A stretch of 64,000 bases of DNA from Opitutia bacterium (GTDB lineage Bacteria > Verrucomicrobiota > Verrucomicrobiia > Opitutales > UBA953): positions 62,001 to 126,000 of the forward strand of contig BGOI01000002.1 in assembly GCA_003569165.1 (NCBI GenBank). Direction: 5' to 3'. The notes below the pieces were generated by a model, which was given only the letters and a program-made list of their open reading frames with translations, was not told the DNA's origin and ran no database searches. A program made the position numbers and the translations under genes. This document shows, one piece after another, positions 6,533-26,072 of the stretch. Every line of letters starts with the position of its first letter. Positions within the stretch are counted from its first letter, which is position 1.

Positions 6533-6556
6533 GACCCGCCGCAAGGCGGGTCTTTT
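6533..6556 (+). terminator. Bidirectional rho-independent terminator
   Basis: An 8-bp perfect stem GACCCGCC / GGCGGGTC (6533-6540 and 6545-6552) with GCAA tetraloop is followed by TTTT. It sits nine bases after the stop of the secreted-protein gene. It overlaps the stop of the convergent PLP-enzyme gene, so it may serve both strands. Confidence 0.85.
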
Positions 6557-8054
6557 ATTTAGCGAGCGCAACTTCGAACGCCGACCAGATCTCTTCCAGT
6601 GGCTCAAGCCCGACGGAGATCCGCAGGAGATCAGGGTCGAGTCCAGCAGCACGGATATGCGCCCTCCCCTGCTCATTCGTCACTTCGTCGAAATGCGCGA
6701 GCCACATGAACGGCGACGCGATGGTGAACGCGAGGCCGAAGCTGGGACCCTTGACCACCGCCAAGCGATCGTAGGCGGCGCGCATCGCGCCTTCGCGTAG
6801 CTCGACAGTGACCAGCGAGCCTGCGCCCGCGCCCGGACGCATGATTGCGCGATAGTGGTCGGCGGTAGGGCCGGTGAGGGCGGTGCGCACGCGCACGACG
6901 GAAGGGTGCGCGGCGAGACGTCGCGCGAGTTCGGTCGCGTTGGCCGAGAGCTTCGCGGTGACCTGCGCGACCTGCGCCGCTTGCGGGGCGAGCGCCGCGG
7001 CGTCGAGCGCGTGCAAGGGGACGTGCCGCTGCCGGGCGGCGGCCAGGAGCTCGGCGGCGCGCGGGCGCGCGGGATTCACGGCGAGGACCCCCGCCATGAC
7101 GTCGCCCGACGAGGCGGCGTACTTCGTGAGGCTACAGGGGACGAGGTCGGCGTAAGGCAGGACATCGGTGGCGGCGACGCCGGCGGAACTCGGGTCGACC
7201 ACCAACATCGCCCCGTGAAGATCGCAAAGCGCGCGCAGCGCACGCAGGTCGACGGTCTGGAGCTGCGGATTGTTCGGCGCCTCCGTGAGGACGCCCGCGA
7301 CGTCTCCCCGCGCGAGGAGGCGCCCGACCTCAGCGAGGTCGGTGACGTCATGGACGAACCTGCGCTCGACGCCGGGATTCTTCTCCAGCAGGCGGATCGA
7401 ATCGACGTACAGCCAGCCCAGCTGGATCCAGACGCGGCGGCCGGCGGCGGACTGCACGACGTCGACGGCATGCAGGGCGGCGTCGACGGCGTTCATGCCC
7501 GAGGAGCAGAGGAGTAGGTCCGCGGGCGCGACGCCTTCGAAGAAGGGCATGAGCGCGGTGCGCACTTCGGCCGAGCCCGTGTCGGGCGCGTCCGGCTCAT
7601 CGGCGAGCCAAGCCTCGGCCTGACGGGAAGAAATGAGCGCGCCCGTGTGCTGCACGAGCTTGGCCAGCCGGTTTGCGGCGTCGCCTGACTCGACGATGAG
7701 CAGGATGCCTGCCCCGCCGACACCAACGGCCAGCGTGCGTGCGCCGGCCTGCGCTGCGAGCCGCCGTGCGACATCCTCCCGGGCAAGGGGGAAAAGCGCC
7801 CAAGGCGGGGCGGGCCAGCTCGGCGGCAGATACTCCGAGTCCGGCGTGAAAGCGCATCGCCGGGCCAACTCCTCCGCGGCCGCCGAGACGAACGCGTTAC
7901 GCACAAAGCGCGGGTAGCCGGCGTGGAGCAGTTTCCAGACGCGCTCCTCCTTCCGCTCGTAGCTCTCGACGTCGGCGAGCGTCGGCAGGCAGACGACGGT
8001 CGCATGCGGCGAGTCGGGCACCGTGACGCCCAGGGCTGGCGAAAGGAGCGGCAC
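6555..8054 (-). CDS. Cys/Met-metabolism PLP-dependent enzyme (cystathionine gamma-synthase/lyase-like)
   Basis: A 499-residue fold-type I PLP enzyme. The probable Schiff-base Lys is K311 in CSLTKYAASSGDVMAG, the usual S-x-T-K-Y-(x)-(x)-GH/GD pattern. Upstream are TEAPNNPQLQTVDL (260-270, like the TPTNP motif) and VVDPSSAG with Asp 287. The C-terminal domain ends LLRISVGLEPLEEIW, a hallmark of the MetB/MetC group (RlSvGlE). It is ~100 residues longer than typical MetB because of an N-terminal extension of no known function. It lies two bases downstream of lysA, so the pair is probably an operon for methionine/lysine synthesis from aspartate. The exact reaction is not decided by sequence. Confidence 0.8.
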   Translation of the reverse strand: MPLLSPALGVTVPDSPHATVVCLPTLADVESYERKEERVWKLLHAGYPRFVRNAFVSAAAEELARRCAFTPDSEYLPPSWPAPPWALFPLAREDVARRLAAQAGARTLAVGVGGAGILLIVESGDAANRLAKLVQHTGALISSRQAEAWLADEPDAPDTGSAEVRTALMPFFEGVAPADLLLCSSGMNAVDAALHAVDVVQSAAGRRVWIQLGWLYVDSIRLLEKNPGVERRFVHDVTDLAEVGRLLARGDVAGVLTEAPNNPQLQTVDLRALRALCDLHGAMLVVDPSSAGVAATDVLPYADLVPCSLTKYAASSGDVMAGVLAVNPARPRAAELLAAARQRHVPLHALDAAALAPQAAQVAQVTAKLSANATELARRLAAHPSVVRVRTALTGPTADHYRAIMRPGAGAGSLVTVELREGAMRAAYDRLAVVKGPSFGLAFTIASPFMWLAHFDEVTNEQGRAHIRAAGLDPDLLRISVGLEPLEEIWSAFEVALAK

Positions 8055-10816: not shown

Positions 10817-12697
10817 ATGCGACCTCACAAACAAATCCGCCTCGGGCCTGATCGCCCCTATGACGTCATCGTCTGCGGGGCCGGCCATGCCGGCGTGGAA
10901 GCCGCCCTGGCCGCCGCCCGCATGGGCGTGGATGTCCTGCTCCTGACGGGGAACGTGGACACCATCGCCCAGATGAGCTGCAACCCAGCCATCGGCGGGC
11001 AAGCCAAGGGACACATCGTCCGGGAGATCGACGCCCTGGGGGGCGAGATGGGCCTGACCGCCGATGTGACCGGCATCCAGTTCCGCCTCCTCAACTCCTC
11101 CAAGGGGCCCGCCGTCCAAGCCCCCCGCGCCCAGTGTGATAAGAAGGCCTACCAGTTCCGGATGAAGCACCTCTGCGAACTGCAGGACGGCCTGACCATC
11201 TTCCAATCCCAGGTCACCGGGCTCATCTTTAAGAACGGCGCCGTGGTCGGGGTGCAGACCAACCTCGATCTCGACTTCCACGCCAAGACCGTGGTCGTCA
11301 CCACCGGCACTTTCTTGCGCGGCCTGATGCACATCGGGGCGAATAAAACCGAGGGCGGTCGCCTAGGTGATTTTAGTGCTAAGTCATTGTCAGCCAGTTT
11401 CTTAGAGGCTGGTATCGAACTCCAGAGACTCAAGACGGGCACCCCGCCGCGCATCCTGGGACGGTCCATCGATTTTAGCAAATGTGAGGAGCAGCCGGGC
11501 GATGCCTCCCCCACCCTTTTTGCCTTCCACGATACCCGCCAGCAGGCCGATTTGTTCCACGTGGAACAAGCCGGTGAGCGCCTCCCCGGATGGACCCCTG
11601 GAAGTGAGCAGGTATCCTGTTGGATGACCGAGGCGACCAGCGCCACCGGCAAGATTGTCCAAGAGAACCTCCACCTCTCTCCTCTTTTTGGCGGCGAGAT
11701 CACTGGGGTCGGGCCGCGCTACTGCCCGTCCATCGAGGACAAGTTTGTGAAGTTCTCGGATAAGGACACCCATAAGCTCTACCTCGAGCCCGAAGGCCGC
11801 AACACCGACGAATGGTATATCAACGGCCTTTCGACCTCCCTGCCCTTTACCGTCCAACTCCAGATGCTGGCTTCGGTCCCCGGGCTAGAGAAAGCCGTTA
11901 TGCTGCGCCCGGCCTATGCCGTGGAATACGATTTCGCGCCCCCTACCCAGCTTTACCCCACCTTGGAGTCCAAAAAGGTCGAAGGCTTATTCTTTGCCGG
12001 CCAGATCAATGGAACCTCTGGGTACGAGGAAGCCGGCGCCCAAGGCCTCGTCGCCGGGGTTAATGCCGCCTGTAAGGTCAAAGGTCAGACTCCCATGGTC
12101 ATTGGCCGCGACGAAGCCTATATCGGAGTCCTGATCGATGATTTGGTGACCAAAGGCACCCAGGAGCCTTACCGGATGTTTACCAGCCGGGCTGAATTCC
12201 GCCTCTTATTCAACCACGGGAGCGCCGAACTCCGCCTTAAGGATAAAATCGCCGAGTTCGGCTTAGTCCCGCCGGATCGCCTAGGCCGAATCCAGGCCAA
12301 GGCTGAGAAAGTCGCTCATTGGATCGAATATCTGGAAAAATTAGCCATCCCGGGCGGGATTGCCGGCGACGTCATCCGTCGTAACTGGGAATCGACCCCT
12401 AAGGACCTGCCTCCAACATTCCTGGCCGAAGCCCCTGAAGTTCAGGCTGAAGTCATGTACCGGGTCAAATACCGCGGCTATCTGGAACGCGAAACGCGCA
12501 ACGCCCGCAAGCTACATGACCTGGACTCCTTTAAGGTGCCTGAAGGCTTTGATTTCTTAAAAGCCTACGGCTTACGCATTGAAGCCCGCCAGAAGCTCCA
12601 AGCCATTCAGCCCAAGACCCTGGGCCAAGCCAGCCGGATCAGCGGGGTCAACCCAGCAGACATCTCACTGCTGATGGTTCTTTTCCGGGCAAAGTAA
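10817..12697 (+). CDS. mnmG: tRNA uridine-5-carboxymethylaminomethyl modification enzyme MnmG (GidA)
   Basis: I choose the ATG at 10817 because GGTGAGGGAG lies seven bases upstream; a GTG at 10790 overlapping mnmE is the alternative. The 626-residue protein starts with the FAD-binding motif [21 protein letters not shown]. It contains [24 protein letters not shown] and the [10 protein letters not shown] segment, and has a C-terminal MnmE-binding helical domain. It is the FAD partner of MnmE. An in-frame 16-bp parS palindrome encodes part of the loop sequence LFHVEQ. GidA genes often lie near oriC in bacteria, consistent with the parS sites here. Confidence 0.97.
11553..11568. promoter_or_regulatory. 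parS centromere site 1 (inside mnmG)
   Basis: The sequence TGTTCCACGTGGAACA is a perfect 16-bp palindrome. It matches the near-universal ParB-binding consensus TGTTtCACGTGaAACA, with the internal C/G variant known from Pseudomonas. It sits in the mnmG coding frame. A second identical copy lies 1.2 kb downstream, and repetition of such a long palindrome supports function. No parA or parB gene is in the window. Confidence 0.85.
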
Positions 12698-12725: not shown

Positions 12726-12741
12726 TGTTCCACGTGGAACA
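12726..12741. promoter_or_regulatory. parS centromere site 2 (after mnmG)
   Basis: A second perfect TGTTCCACGTGGAACA, 29 bases beyond the mnmG stop codon in non-coding DNA, identical to the copy at 11553. Being outside a gene, it is not explained by coding constraint. Together the two mark a likely ParB-loading locus and origin-proximal position. Confidence 0.88.
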
Positions 12742-21120: not shown

Positions 21121-22005
21121 GTGACCACTCCCCCCTTAAAGCCCCAGTATTCCTCACCAGAAGAGGCCGCCCGGATCTACCTGCTGCCTAACCTCTTCAC
21201 GGCGGGCAACATGCTCTGTGGCTTCCTGGCCATCAAGAACTGCATCGAGGCGCGCTTCACTTCGCTGACCGCCGACGGCCGGGCGGATCACTATATTATG
21301 GCGGTCTGGTTCATCCTTTTCGCCTGCGTCTGCGATCTTTTCGATGGCCGGGTCGCCCGCGCCACCAAGCGGGAATCGCTCTTCGGGGCCGAATTCGATT
21401 CCATCGCGGACACGGTCTCATTCGGCGTGGCCCCGGCGCTCATGGCCTGTTTCTTGGTCATCAAGCCTGAGGCCACGGATAACGTCCAGCTGATCACCTG
21501 GCTGCTGGCATTCATCTATCTTCTGTGTGCAGGGGTGCGTCTGGCGCGTTTTAACGTCCTGACCAACCCACTCGTCCCAGGTAACGAGAAACGTGCCGCT
21601 GGGGGCGATTTCGTCGGCCTGCCGTCGCCTGCCGCCGCTGGGATGATCGCCTCGCTGGTCTTGGTCTTATCCAAGATCATGGAAGCCGAGGGGCCGCTCG
21701 AGGTGGCCGTCCAGGCCTGGTCTTGGACGCTCCTTCCCCTGATGTTAATCATCTCTTTCCTGATGATTAGTAATGTGCGTTTCCCTAGTTTTAAAAAGAT
21801 AGATTGGACCGCTCGCACGCGTACCCGCGGCTTCATTGTGATTTTCTTGGTCGTGGGGACGGTGTTGTGGCAACCCCAGTATTCCTTCCCGGCCATTTTC
21901 CTTGGCTATATCAGCTACAGTATCTTCCGTCATATCTTCCTTCTCAAAAAGAGTGAGATGGACCCAGCGCCGGACGACGATGATGAGCCGGTGTCCAAGG
22001 TGTGA
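21121..22005 (+). CDS. pssA: CDP-diacylglycerol-serine O-phosphatidyltransferase
   Basis: GTG start at 21121, two bases after the preceding stop. The 294-residue membrane enzyme has the CDP-alcohol phosphotransferase signature DGRVARATKRESLFGAEFDSIAD (DGxxAR...GxxxDxxxD) at about 79-100, within 7-8 membrane helices. The N-terminal LLPNLFTAGNMLCGFLA is the hallmark of type II PssA. It makes phosphatidylserine, the precursor of phosphatidylethanolamine. Its stop codon lies in the DnaA-box cluster that precedes dnaN. Confidence 0.93.
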   Translation: MTTPPLKPQYSSPEEAARIYLLPNLFTAGNMLCGFLAIKNCIEARFTSLTADGRADHYIMAVWFILFACVCDLFDGRVARATKRESLFGAEFDSIADTVSFGVAPALMACFLVIKPEATDNVQLITWLLAFIYLLCAGVRLARFNVLTNPLVPGNEKRAAGGDFVGLPSPAAAGMIASLVLVLSKIMEAEGPLEVAVQAWSWTLLPLMLIISFLMISNVRFPSFKKIDWTARTRTRGFIVIFLVVGTVLWQPQYSFPAIFLGYISYSIFRHIFLLKKSEMDPAPDDDDEPVSKV

Positions 22006-22195
22006 ATAGGCCGTGAAGGATTGGTTCGTCTGGCCTCATGTGAACAACCGAGGACTTATTCACCCCGGATACACAGCCACCTTAGCTGCCGATAAGACCG
22101 CTCATCAGGGGCTTGCGGAACTATACACGGGATTCCGACACCTACTGATGCTACTGGTATTTATAAATGAAGAGTAAGTAGATACAGAGAGTCCC
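22001..22195. promoter_or_regulatory. DnaA-box cluster and AT-rich tract before dnaN (candidate origin or dnaN control region)
   Basis: The ~250-base gap holds several near matches to the DnaA box TTATNCACA. CTATTCACA (rc of 22001-22009), TTGTTCACA (rc of 22039-22047) and TTATTCACC (22056-22064) each differ at one position. GGATACACA (22067-22075) and CTATACACG (22121-22129) differ at two. An AT-rich run (GGTATTTATAAATGAAG, from 22156) follows. Clustered boxes plus an AT-rich tract before dnaN are typical of oriC. dnaA itself is not in the window, so this may instead be DnaA-controlled dnaN expression. Confidence 0.55.
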
Positions 22196-22254
22196 GGTAT
22201 GTGGGCAATGAGGGGTTGCCTCACCCCCTGCCTGTCCTCAATTCTCCCGTCATC

Positions 22255-23382
22255 ATGAAGTTCAAGGTTAACCGAAATCACTTTTTCAACGGCCTCTCCA
22301 GCGTCACCAACGTCGTGGGTAACCGCGCGACGATGCCGATTCTGCAAAACGTGCTCATCGAAGCGGAAGGGGACACAATCACCCTAACCACCACCAACCT
22401 CGATCTCGGTATCTGCTGCCGCATCAAGGCTTCCGTATCTTCGCCGGGTCGCATCACCCTGCCAGTCAAGAAACTGGTTCCCATCATCCGCGCCCTTTCG
22501 AGCAGTGACACGATTGTCGAACTCACCGGCAAAGACCGCGTGAAAATCACCTCCGGAAGTTCCGTCTTCCAAATTGCTGGTCTGCCGGCTGATCAGTTCC
22601 CACCCATTTCCAATTTCACCGGACAACCGACGATTTCCATCAACCAGGACGATCTCGGCGACATGCTCCGCAAAGTGAGCTACGCCCAGTCCTCCGATGA
22701 GAATCGTTACATCCTCAACGGCGTCTTTTTTGAATTCGCCGAAGGCAAGCTCACCGTCGTCGCGACCGATGGACGTCGTCTCGCAAAATGTGAACGCAAG
22801 ATCGCCGGATCCGACAAGGCTCTGGCCCTCATCCTGCCCGCGCGCACGATCATCGAACTGATGCGCCTGCTCAAGTCTGGCGGCGAAGCCCACGTCTCGC
22901 ACAACGAACGCCAGGTCGGCTTCACGATCGACATCCCCAAGAACGAAGAAGGCCTCGTGGACCGCATCCAGCTCGTCTCCAAGGTCGTCGAAGGGAACTA
23001 TCCGAACTACCGCCAGGTCATCCCGAAGGAAGCCGGCTCCAAGGTCCGCCTCGAGCGCGAGAAGCTCCTCGAAAGCGTCAACCGCGCCGCGCTGATGACC
23101 GACGATCGTAATAACACGATTCGCATGAGCGTCTCGAAGAAGACCCAGAATCTTGAAATCTCCGCCAAGTCCGAAAGTGGCGAAGCGCATGAACCCATCG
23201 CCGTGAAGTACGAAGGCCCGGACGTGAATATCGCGTTCAACCCTCAGTACATCACCGACCCGCTCAAGGCCCTCACCGAGGATGAAATCGATTTCGAATT
23301 CAAGGACGAGATGTCCCCGGGCGTCATTCGTGGACTCAAGGACGACTTCCTCTGTGTCGTGATGCCTCAGCGCATCTCGTAA
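22255..23382 (+). CDS. dnaN: DNA polymerase III sliding clamp (beta subunit)
   Basis: The ATG at 22255 (MKFKVNRNHFFNGLSSVTNVV) is the family N-terminus, giving 375 residues, the normal length. Three clamp domains are visible, with ASVSSPGRITLPVKKL at the domain 1/2 boundary, ATDGRRLAKCER in domain 2 and the C-terminal FLCVVMPQRI (MPxR) end. It forms the ring dimer that tethers polymerases to DNA. The position after a DnaA-box cluster is typical of a replication-initiation region. It is convergent with plsC. Confidence 0.97.
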   Translation: MKFKVNRNHFFNGLSSVTNVVGNRATMPILQNVLIEAEGDTITLTTTNLDLGICCRIKASVSSPGRITLPVKKLVPIIRALSSSDTIVELTGKDRVKITSGSSVFQIAGLPADQFPPISNFTGQPTISINQDDLGDMLRKVSYAQSSDENRYILNGVFFEFAEGKLTVVATDGRRLAKCERKIAGSDKALALILPARTIIELMRLLKSGGEAHVSHNERQVGFTIDIPKNEEGLVDRIQLVSKVVEGNYPNYRQVIPKEAGSKVRLEREKLLESVNRAALMTDDRNNTIRMSVSKKTQNLEISAKSESGEAHEPIAVKYEGPDVNIAFNPQYITDPLKALTEDEIDFEFKDEMSPGVIRGLKDDFLCVVMPQRIS

Positions 23383-23394
23383 AGAGCCGCCCGA

Positions 23395-24039
23395 TCAGAG
23401 TCCGGGGTCGTCGCAATCCGGAAGCGACTTGATCCGCTCGAGGATCCGGCGGGACGCTTCGATGGAGCGATCAGCGTGATCGCTGCCAGGATCGTATTCC
23501 GACGGTTGCATCGCCTTGCCGAAACGCACGCGGATACGCGCCGAGCCGAGCGGGAAATTGGCGCCGCGCGGCAACATATCGCGGGCCCCGCGAATATGAA
23601 TTGGGACGACCGGAACCCCCGAGCGACAGGCCAGCAGGCCGGCCCCGGCCTTAGGCGCGGTGATGACCCCATCTTGGCTGCGGGTGCCCTCCGGGAAGAT
23701 CAGGAGGCCTTCGCCAGCCTTCAGGGCGGCCAAGGCGGACCGGATGGCCCCGATATCAGCTTCCCCACGGTCGACCGGAATAGAATGGCAGGCCTGGATC
23801 ACGAAGCCGAAGAGTGGATTATCGAAAAGCGTGCGACGTGCGATGAACGAAATCTCGCGCGGCAGACTGGAGCCGATCAAGGGCGGGTCGAGCATACTTT
23901 GGTGATTAGAAGCGAAGAGACAGGCGCCGTCCGGAACGTTCTCCCAGCCTTCGACCTCCAGGGTGGAAAAGACTTCCATGAATGAGCGCGCGCCGTGGTA
24001 GACGGCCTTGTAGATTAGGTTCTTCGAATCGAGGATCAT
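23395..24039 (-). CDS. plsC: 1-acyl-sn-glycerol-3-phosphate acyltransferase
   Basis: A 214-residue membrane-associated acyltransferase. Motif I is NHQSMLDPP (the HX4D catalytic pair), motif III is FPEGTRSQDG, and VPVVPIHIRGARD is the fourth block. It converts lysophosphatidate to phosphatidate. Its ATG overlaps the end of the aroA-cmk gene by four bases, so it belongs to the tyrA-aroA/cmk-plsC operon, an order known from several bacteria. Length and motifs are complete. Confidence 0.93.
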   Translation of the reverse strand: MILDSKNLIYKAVYHGARSFMEVFSTLEVEGWENVPDGACLFASNHQSMLDPPLIGSSLPREISFIARRTLFDNPLFGFVIQACHSIPVDRGEADIGAIRSALAALKAGEGLLIFPEGTRSQDGVITAPKAGAGLLACRSGVPVVPIHIRGARDMLPRGANFPLGSARIRVRFGKAMQPSEYDPGSDHADRSIEASRRILERIKSLPDCDDPGL

Positions 24040-26072
24040 CGGGGCAGCGCGGCGATCTTAATCAATTCGGAGATTTCCGCCACGACTTGCTCGAGGGAGA
24101 GATCGGTATTATCAATGCGATGGGCACCCTTGGGGCAGACTAGAGGCGCAGTCTTACGCGTCGAATCCAGTAGGTCGCGCTGGGCCACGGCGTCGGACTG
24201 GCCTTCGGCAGCGCGTCGCTGCGCGCGCACGGCTTCATTCGCTTCGAGGAAGATACGGACTTCAGCGTCAGGCAGTACGACGGAGCCGATGTCACGGCCT
24301 TCCATGACGACCCCAGTAAAGCCGTTTTCCTGGGCCAGCTTCACCTGGCTACGTTGATACTCGAGGAGGAAGGTGCGGATGACGGGCAGGGCGGCCATCT
24401 TCGAGACAGCCGCATTCACTTCAGGTGTTCGGAGCGATTCATCTGAAGGCAACTGCCCGCCCAGCGTCAGCGAGGAGCTTCGCGCCCAGCCACATTCTAC
24501 AATCTGTGACCCCATGCGGATTTTCTTCAGCGCCGCAGAGATGGAAGCCGTATCCTCCGCCGTGGCACCCATATCTAGTAAAGCACGGGTCAGGCTGCGA
24601 TAATGGGCGCCAGTGTCGACATGGAGTAGGCCCATCATCGCAGCCAGGACACGGCTGGTGCTAGATTTGCCCGAAGCGGCGCCGCCGTCGACGGTGACGC
24701 GCACGAAATTGGTCCGCAGGGCCTCGAGGGCGACGAAAAAATGCGGGAACGTTTTACTTGTGCAGGCGGGGTCTTGGACGGCGATCCAAGGGCGCCCGTC
24801 ACCGAAGAGATCTAGGCAGCCCAGCACACCGAAGCTCATCGCCATCCGATGATCTTCGTAAGTGTGGATTTCGACTGGTCCATTCGCCGCAGCTTTACGG
24901 AGCGCGCCTTTGTCGGGGAAAATCGTCAGCTCCGAAAGCGTATCATCTGCGCGCAGCTCCCGGGCCGTCGGTTTTACGCGGATGCCGAGTCGCTCTAATT
25001 CAGTCGCCATGGCGAGGACGCGGTCGGTTTCCTGTTTGCGGGTGTGGGCGATACCGCTGATGCGTACCGGACCTGTAGCGAGAGTGGCGAGGGTCGCCAG
25101 CGTCAGGAAAGTGTCTGAGAAGGCATTGAAATCGAAATCGCCGCCCTGAATATTCTTCCACGACTGAACGACCATATTGCCGTCGGCGGGACGTAAAATA
25201 GCACCACAAGCGGCGGCGACCTTGGCGAAAGCGGTATCCCCTTGTAGGCTGCCATGGGCATAACCCTCGATACGAACGCAGGCTCCGAAGCCGGTGACTG
25301 CGGGCAAGGCAATGAAGTAACTCGCCGCGGTGGCGTCGGGTTCGATGGCGTATACCGGGTGACAGGAGACGTAGCTGCCGGGTTCATCACAAGCCCAGCA
25401 GCCGTTTTCCTGGCGGCGGAGTGGACGACCAAATTGGCCGCACATGCGGGCGGTCATTTCGACGAACGGCTCCGACACCGTCGCGCCTTTCATGGTGACG
25501 GAGGCGCCTGGGCTTAGTGGCAGGACCATCAAGAGCGCCGAGAGTAATTGCGAGGAAGCAGAAGCGTCGACGGTGAGAGCCCCGAGCTTGCCCGACGTAT
25601 GCAAGGTGAACGGAAAATGTGTTGCGGGTGAACCATCAGGTTTCGAGGCGCGGCAGCCTGCACCCGCCAGGGCATCAAGCAGGCCGCTCATAGGGCGCGA
25701 GCGCATGGCCTCATCGCCATCGAGCTCGAAACAACCATCTGGAGAGAGGGCGAGGAATGCCGTGAGGAAGCGTGCCGCGGTCCCGGCGTTACCGACAAAA
25801 AGCTTGGCTCGGTTGTTCGGAATTTTCCCCGATAGGCCGGTGATACAAATCACATGGGCCGGCTCATCGGTAATGACGTCGAAGCCGAGGCTCTGCAACG
25901 CGGCAATAAGGATGCGAGTGTCGCGGCTGAAGAGTGCGCCGGTCAGCACCGTGCGCCCGTCAGCCAAGGCGGCGAGAATCAACGCGCGATTGGTGATGCT
26001 CTTCGACCCTGGGACTTGGGCGACGCCACGGGCAGGCGTCTGGAATGGGCGGATGACGAGAGTTGGACTCAT
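24036..26072 (-). CDS. aroA-cmk: Fused 3-phosphoshikimate 1-carboxyvinyltransferase and cytidylate kinase
   Basis: A 678-residue fusion. Residues 1-440 are EPSP synthase: GSKSITNRALILAALADG (shikimate-3-P site), LFVGNAGTAARFLTAFLA, the catalytic Asp in NAFSDTFLTLATLATLATG, and YEDHRMAMSFG. Residues ~455-670 are cytidylate kinase: VRVTVDGGAASGKSSTSRVL (P-loop), HVDTGAHYR, and VVMEGRDIGSVVLPDAEVRIFLEAN. It joins step six of the shikimate pathway with CMP/dCMP phosphorylation. The start overlaps tyrA (ATGA). In many genomes the two are adjacent separate genes; this single frame has no stop between the domains. Confidence 0.93.
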   Translation of the reverse strand: MSPTLVIRPFQTPARGVAQVPGSKSITNRALILAALADGRTVLTGALFSRDTRILIAALQSLGFDVITDEPAHVICITGLSGKIPNNRAKLFVGNAGTAARFLTAFLALSPDGCFELDGDEAMRSRPMSGLLDALAGAGCRASKPDGSPATHFPFTLHTSGKLGALTVDASASSQLLSALLMVLPLSPGASVTMKGATVSEPFVEMTARMCGQFGRPLRRQENGCWACDEPGSYVSCHPVYAIEPDATAASYFIALPAVTGFGACVRIEGYAHGSLQGDTAFAKVAAACGAILRPADGNMVVQSWKNIQGGDFDFNAFSDTFLTLATLATLATGPVRISGIAHTRKQETDRVLAMATELERLGIRVKPTARELRADDTLSELTIFPDKGALRKAAANGPVEIHTYEDHRMAMSFGVLGCLDLFGDGRPWIAVQDPACTSKTFPHFFVALEALRTNFVRVTVDGGAASGKSSTSRVLAAMMGLLHVDTGAHYRSLTRALLDMGATAEDTASISAALKKIRMGSQIVECGWARSSSLTLGGQLPSDESLRTPEVNAAVSKMAALPVIRTFLLEYQRSQVKLAQENGFTGVVMEGRDIGSVVLPDAEVRIFLEANEAVRAQRRAAEGQSDAVAQRDLLDSTRKTAPLVCPKGAHRIDNTDLSLEQVVAEISELIKIAALPR

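Follow-up and report, generated by a model that had tools for sequence, protein, structure and literature searches.

A very probable chromosomal replication origin between pssA and dnaN, away from dnaA, in an Opitutales bacterium and its relatives

The chromosomal origin of cyanobacteria, including that of Cyanothece ATCC 51142, usually lies beside dnaN with dnaA located elsewhere, as described in the available parts of the literature (PMC6323995, PMC2275245, PMC4674748). A comparable position upstream of dnaN is occupied by the basal unwinding system (BUS) of Bacillus subtilis incC and of C. difficile oriC2, in which a DnaA box is followed by a short spacer, DnaA-trios, and an AT-rich tract (PMC8287927, PMC6669920, PMC7561715, each as available in part). 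The search rule for the BUS, in the accessible portion of its source, combines a box of at most two changes, a spacer of up to 16 bases (peak 10-13), and three or more NAN trios (PMC8287927). In Methylacidiphilum, belonging to another class of the same phylum as the Opitutales, the origin was located by GC skew, and its reported distance upstream of dnaA is 250 nt for M. infernorum (PMC2474590) and ~6.6 kb for M. fumariolicum (PMC4210602), as stated in the available excerpts of these two sources. For the Opitutales themselves, no oriC was found in the titles and abstract openings of the literature searched; DoriC may already list such origins.

The window, meaning the whole stretch of 64,000 nucleotides that was analyzed, corresponds to positions 62001-126000 of contig C2 (140,432 bases) from an uncultured freshwater Opitutia bacterium whose assembly comprises 2.03 Mb in 37 contigs and is 86.6% complete. 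By DnaN, most of the closest named relatives were titled as MAGs of uncultured Opitutae, Opitutales, or Verrucomicrobia, several of them lake-derived by name; the searched order is called Opitutales here on the strength of such titles, two of which deviate (Polynucleobacter and Akkermansia) and are probably mislabeled. The dnaN start codon (ATG) is at 22255 and the intergenic gap between pssA and dnaN spans 22006-22254, starting at 22006 rather than 22001 because pssA ends at 22005. Comparison of sequences across the order indicates that the segment from 22001 to ~22190 is very probably the chromosomal oriC, situated in the pssA-dnaN interval with dnaA located elsewhere. The features of the locus are the following:

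11553..11568, no strand assigned: parS copy 1, inside mnmG (perfect palindrome)
12726..12741, no strand assigned: parS copy 2, after mnmG (perfect palindrome)
21121..22005, plus strand: pssA, CDP-diacylglycerol-serine O-phosphatidyltransferase, left neighbor (TIGR00473 above cut-off)
22001..22009, minus strand: DnaA box B1 CTATTCACA, distal, overlapping the pssA stop codon (one change)
22039..22047, minus strand: DnaA box B2 TTGTTCACA, distal (one change)
22056..22064, plus strand: DnaA box B3 TTATTCACC (one change)
22067..22075, plus strand: weak box-like 9-mer GGATACACA, low confidence (two changes)
22121..22129, plus strand: proximal DnaA box B4 CTATACACG, adjoining the trios (two changes)
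22130..22141, plus strand: 12-base spacer GGATTCCGACAC in which TTCCG is conserved (from the alignment)
22142..22165, minus strand: eight unbroken DnaA-trios, each triplet having A at its center when read 3'->5' (from sequence and alignment)
22157..22190, no strand assigned: AT-rich tract (74% AT), a probable DNA unwinding element that overlaps the end of the trio run
22255..23382, plus strand: dnaN, DNA polymerase III beta sliding clamp, right neighbor (TIGR00663 above cut-off; PF00712, PF02767, PF02768)

The layout is the same as that of the cyanobacterial origins, as far as the cited sources describe them, in being intergenic and directly before dnaN, in having few DnaA boxes with an AT-rich stretch, and in the absence of an adjacent dnaA. 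The type is not the same: the boxes at this locus are TTATTCACA-like, the species-specific cyanobacterial box TTTTCCACA was not found among them, the phylum is a different one, and the linkage to parS is observed here for genomes of this order only. The succession of box, short spacer, trios, and AT-rich tract upstream of dnaN likewise resembles that of the BUS, whereas the Firmicutes origins, in the accessible parts of the reports, are bipartite with dnaA adjoining; here dnaA is carried by a different contig and a single origin part was identified. As in Methylacidiphilum the origin was located by GC skew (in the present case that of relatives), but its place is beside dnaN instead of upstream of dnaA.

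The five 9-mers named in the original prediction, three with one change and two with two changes from TTATNCACA, were all recovered at their positions, and four of them lie between pssA and dnaN as it had claimed; the exception is the first, which reaches into the pssA stop codon. Whereas 9-mers of one change were at chance level over the whole window (10 vs. 9.8 expected), the 254 bases from 22001 to 22254 contained three compared to 0.187 expected under a first-order Markov model built on that stretch (P(>=3) = 0.0006). Perfect TTATNCACA boxes numbered 20 genome-wide, the sole copy on contig C8 being ~45 kb from dnaA; none occurred in the cluster or elsewhere on C2, so that they were of no use as an origin locator here.

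Conservation of the boxes was evaluated in an alignment of the dnaN upstream regions of 54 relatives plus the window (55 regions; 33 representatives at 90% identity), with two of 56 relatives left out that were without 300 bases upstream. At most two changes to TTATNCACA were found for B1 in 53/55, B2 in 54/55, and B3 in 55/55 regions (31/33, 32/33, and 33/33 of the representatives, respectively), compared to 0.78% of the 9-mers at other alignment columns. The positions of B1-B3 were nearly fixed among relatives with DnaN identities as low as 68%, and the most distant relative (L061, 66% DnaN identity) was without B1 and B2. B4 and the site at 22067-22075 are less secure as boxes, as B4 had at most two changes in 24/55 regions and three or four in the other 31, and the weak site at most two in 21/55 with a partly conserved CACA; the B4 bases T (22124) and C (22128) were invariant in 33/33 representatives. 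A box cluster that exceeds chance and is conserved in relatives, as expected of an oriC, is therefore present at this locus.

The strongest feature, overlooked by the original prediction, was the combination of the box at 22121-22129 with the 12-base spacer and the trio run, which reads CTA CTG ATG CTA CTG GTA TTT ATA on the plus strand. Among 360 boxes of at most two changes on both strands of 138 kb of C2, B4 was the sole box beside six or more trios, and the scan of 76 kb of C8 gave one run of six. Set against the BUS rule, the spacer of 12 and the eight trios fit, and B4 has two changes to TTATNCACA and three to the TTATCCACA of the rule. From its sequence, the spacer at 22130-22141 may hold a degenerate second box. 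The trio run after B4 in the aligned regions comprised at least five trios in 28/55, four in 11/55, and at most two in 16/55, with runs of five or more in 52% of the 33 representatives vs. 3.5% of shuffles. The trio sequence of the window, 5'-CACCTACTGATGCTACTGGTATTTATA, starts with the same CACCTACT as the trio predicted for C. difficile oriC2, given as 5'-CACCTACTACTATTACTACTATGA in the available part of PMC7561715. An AT-rich run had been placed near 22156, and the tract was indeed delimited at 22157-22190; its best 30-mer, starting at 22159, is 77% AT, a value equalled or exceeded by 0.06% of the 30-mers of the window. An AT-rich candidate unwinding element, such as an oriC is expected to carry, thus lies beside the boxes.

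The layout was followed into other genera with 28 wider dnaN loci, minus three that were a fragment, a contig end, and a second copy. In 21 other-genus loci, boxes of at most one change were on the minus strand in 20/22 cases at 181-300 bases before dnaN and on the plus strand in 17/18 cases at 81-180 bases before it, and this distal-minus and proximal-plus orientation gave a Fisher P of 4e-8, uncorrected for kinship. By analogy, the constant plus orientation of the proximal boxes fits the inactivation of the B. subtilis unwinding region when the trio-proximal boxes were reversed, as described in the accessible part of PMC6669920. The strict unbroken-trio rule applied to 26 wider loci gave results mostly not above chance (P < 0.05 in six), the significant loci having their trios at the conserved place in four cases (the window, G144, G084, and G130) and elsewhere in two (G035 and G132). 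A CATAATAAGA-like word, whose best match fell 79-97 bases upstream of dnaN in 13/21 other-genus loci, was rejected as a candidate, its P values being circular because the word was derived from the same data. The box-trio structure upstream of dnaN was absent in two loci of family f17 and one of family f21 (L082, L083, and L096). With parS on a different contig in G052, 163 kb between parS and dnaN in G100, and dnaA only 10 kb from dnaN in G083, the origin may be separated from dnaN in these families.

Two parS sites had also been suggested ~10 kb from the cluster, and the two copies in the window are perfect palindromes of TGTTCCACGTGGAACA with zero expected by chance. Exact parS was identified in 95 of the 132 genomes of the order, with one to three copies each, and distances were obtained for the 55 of these 95 genomes that had places among the matches listed. 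Within the matches listed, parS and dnaN shared a contig in 30/55 genomes and were at most 60 kb apart in 28 of these 30, the exceptions being G032 (74 kb) and G100 (163 kb); the remaining 25 genomes, G052 among them, had parS and dnaN on separate contigs or gave no dnaN match, which is uninformative either way. Again among the matches listed, parS and dnaA shared a contig in 10/55 genomes with the nearest pair 272 kb apart, and the circular parS-dnaA distance in G048 was ~0.3 Mb, calculated from a rounded length. The locus accordingly has the nearby parS of an oriC. The sole ParB_N-domain match in the genome (C5:81970-82248) was not on the parS contig.

In the genome itself, no GC-skew minimum was found at dnaN and the cumulative curve of C2 peaks ~20 kb beyond it. 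On either side of dnaN, four-fold-site skew was negative for genes of the plus strand and positive for those of the minus strand; on C2 and C8 it is set by the coding strand, where C is preferred, masking replication skew. The skew of the genome is therefore uninformative, because the coding-strand third-position bias dominates. The skew was sampled in six relatives, namely the single-contig genomes G130, G051, G020, and G110, a large contig of G106, and contig C4 of the same-genus G035, and in all six the sign turned from negative to positive across dnaN (in G051, single stretches were noisy and the sign change spans the ends of the record). The cumulative minimum of G130 was at C1:2,097,018 (215 kb read) next to a minus-strand dnaN C-terminal match at 2,097,759-2,098,109, and that of G035 was at C4:93,807 (60 kb read) next to a dnaN match at 93,164-93,520, so both finely mapped minima are <2 kb from the dnaN start. 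A skew minimum at the orthologous site was consequently found in relatives, with fine mapping in G130 and G035 only.

Boxes that directly precede dnaN could alternatively constitute a DnaA-controlled promoter or leader of this gene with replication starting elsewhere, and DnaA is a transcription regulator at other sites too, according to the available parts of PMC11317965 and PMC4447404. This explanation is considered very unlikely, as it leaves the skew sign change across dnaN in 6/6 relatives and the clustering of parS unexplained, and a layout of box, spacer, and trios characterizes an opening element in the accessible text of PMC8287927. In addition, a simple sigma-70 scan of 21900-22400 displayed one match (0.4 expected), which is on the minus strand inside pssA and leaves room for promoters of other types. 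These boxes may have a promoter function alongside the origin, but it would account for neither the skew nor parS.

That dnaA lies outside the window was correctly stated in the original prediction, the gene being carried by a different contig, C8, of this assembly (C8:13790). Its leader was aligned for 11 of 14 loci (three partial loci omitted; one of the 11 short). In the dnaA leader (L002:15075-15400, C8) a minus-strand box near -275 was conserved in 10/11 leaders, a convergent plus-strand partner of at most one change in 6/11, and a further box at the start of dnaA in 10/11. These conserved boxes, along with the origin mapped upstream of dnaA in the available part of the M. infernorum report (PMC2474590), would favor an oriC upstream of dnaA on C8 as in Methylacidiphilum, with the element at dnaN secondary. 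Such an arrangement is rated as even less probable than a dnaN promoter, since the skew around dnaA in the same-genus G035 goes from plus to minus (five stretches only), which is opposite to an origin, 2.1 Mb separate dnaA from the skew minimum in the closed G130, and parS is at least 270 kb from dnaA in the 10 genomes where they share a contig among the matches listed. The dnaA leader was rejected as the origin on skew and parS, and from their sequence its conserved boxes are probably involved in dnaA self-regulation. Finally, a chance grouping of weak matches, in keeping with a window-wide match count at chance and none perfect, has a negligible likelihood in light of the local P of ~0.0006 and is refuted by the positional conservation in 55 upstream regions (33 at 90% identity).

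The origin between pssA and dnaN with a split dnaA arrangement, as originally predicted, is supported by the skew of relatives, the conserved boxes, the trio run, and the parS linkage. Points against it are the skew of the genome itself without a minimum, the lack of a perfect box, a poor B4 in 31/55 regions, the short trio runs (at most two) in 16/55, the absence of B1 and B2 in L061, the few wider loci (4/26) with strict trios above chance at the conserved place, the f17 and f21 loci without the structure, and the incompleteness of the MAG. At this origin we infer DnaA binding, opening, helicase loading, and firing, in which DnaA would bind B3 together with the reverse-oriented distal pair, B1 and B2, their occupancy raising the local DnaA concentration. 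DnaA on the forward box B4 would then seed an ATP-DnaA filament on the adjoining minus-strand trios; the filament would stretch the minus strand and open the duplex into the AT-rich tract, where two helicases would be loaded.

The place of dnaA differed widely among the relatives. The dnaA-dnaN distance was 2.1 Mb in G130 and 1.9 Mb in G051, in both of which dnaA was within ~0.3 Mb of the point opposite dnaN towards the skew maximum (i.e., the terminus side), compared to ~0.25-0.3 Mb in G036, G099, and G048 and 10 kb in G083 (family f17; parS on another contig). No single dnaA position is therefore conserved, and the placement in G130, G051, and G035 is unlike the usual layout with dnaA near the origin. 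Three of the six single-contig genomes with a dnaA match had records starting at dnaA (C-terminal domain at ~1.1 kb), with dnaN ~0.25 (from rounded length), 1.06, and 2.1 Mb from dnaA. No dnaA or dnaN match was present in the single-contig genome G097 (f17, 95% complete). We tentatively suggest, at slightly under an even chance, that in much of the Opitutales the origin stayed with dnaN and dnaA was free to move, coming to lie near the terminus in several lineages; the suggestion is not made more firmly because dnaA and dnaN of G083 are so close. If true, the initiator gene would be low in copy number and copied late, and timing would proceed without reliance on a near-origin dnaA dosage.

As far as the literature was searched, the origin appears ordinary in mechanism, less usual in place, and new for the group, and is notable mainly for the separation of oriC from dnaA. 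It places a replication origin for a large and mostly uncultured bacterial order, in which read-depth growth-rate estimates and replichore maps should be centered on dnaN. The order is also a natural setting in which to ask whether the control of initiation depends on a dnaA gene close to oriC.

Other contents of the window included two tRNAs as the only Rfam matches at the gathering threshold. A PLP enzyme encoded at 6555-8051 (minus strand) had as its best NCBIfam match, nearly full length, BesB (L-2-amino-4-chloropent-4-enoate dechlorinase/desaturase) with a score of 310 vs. a model cut-off of 800 bits, i.e., far below it. At 24036-26072 (minus strand), EPSP synthase (aroA) and cytidylate kinase (cmk) domains were joined in one reading frame.
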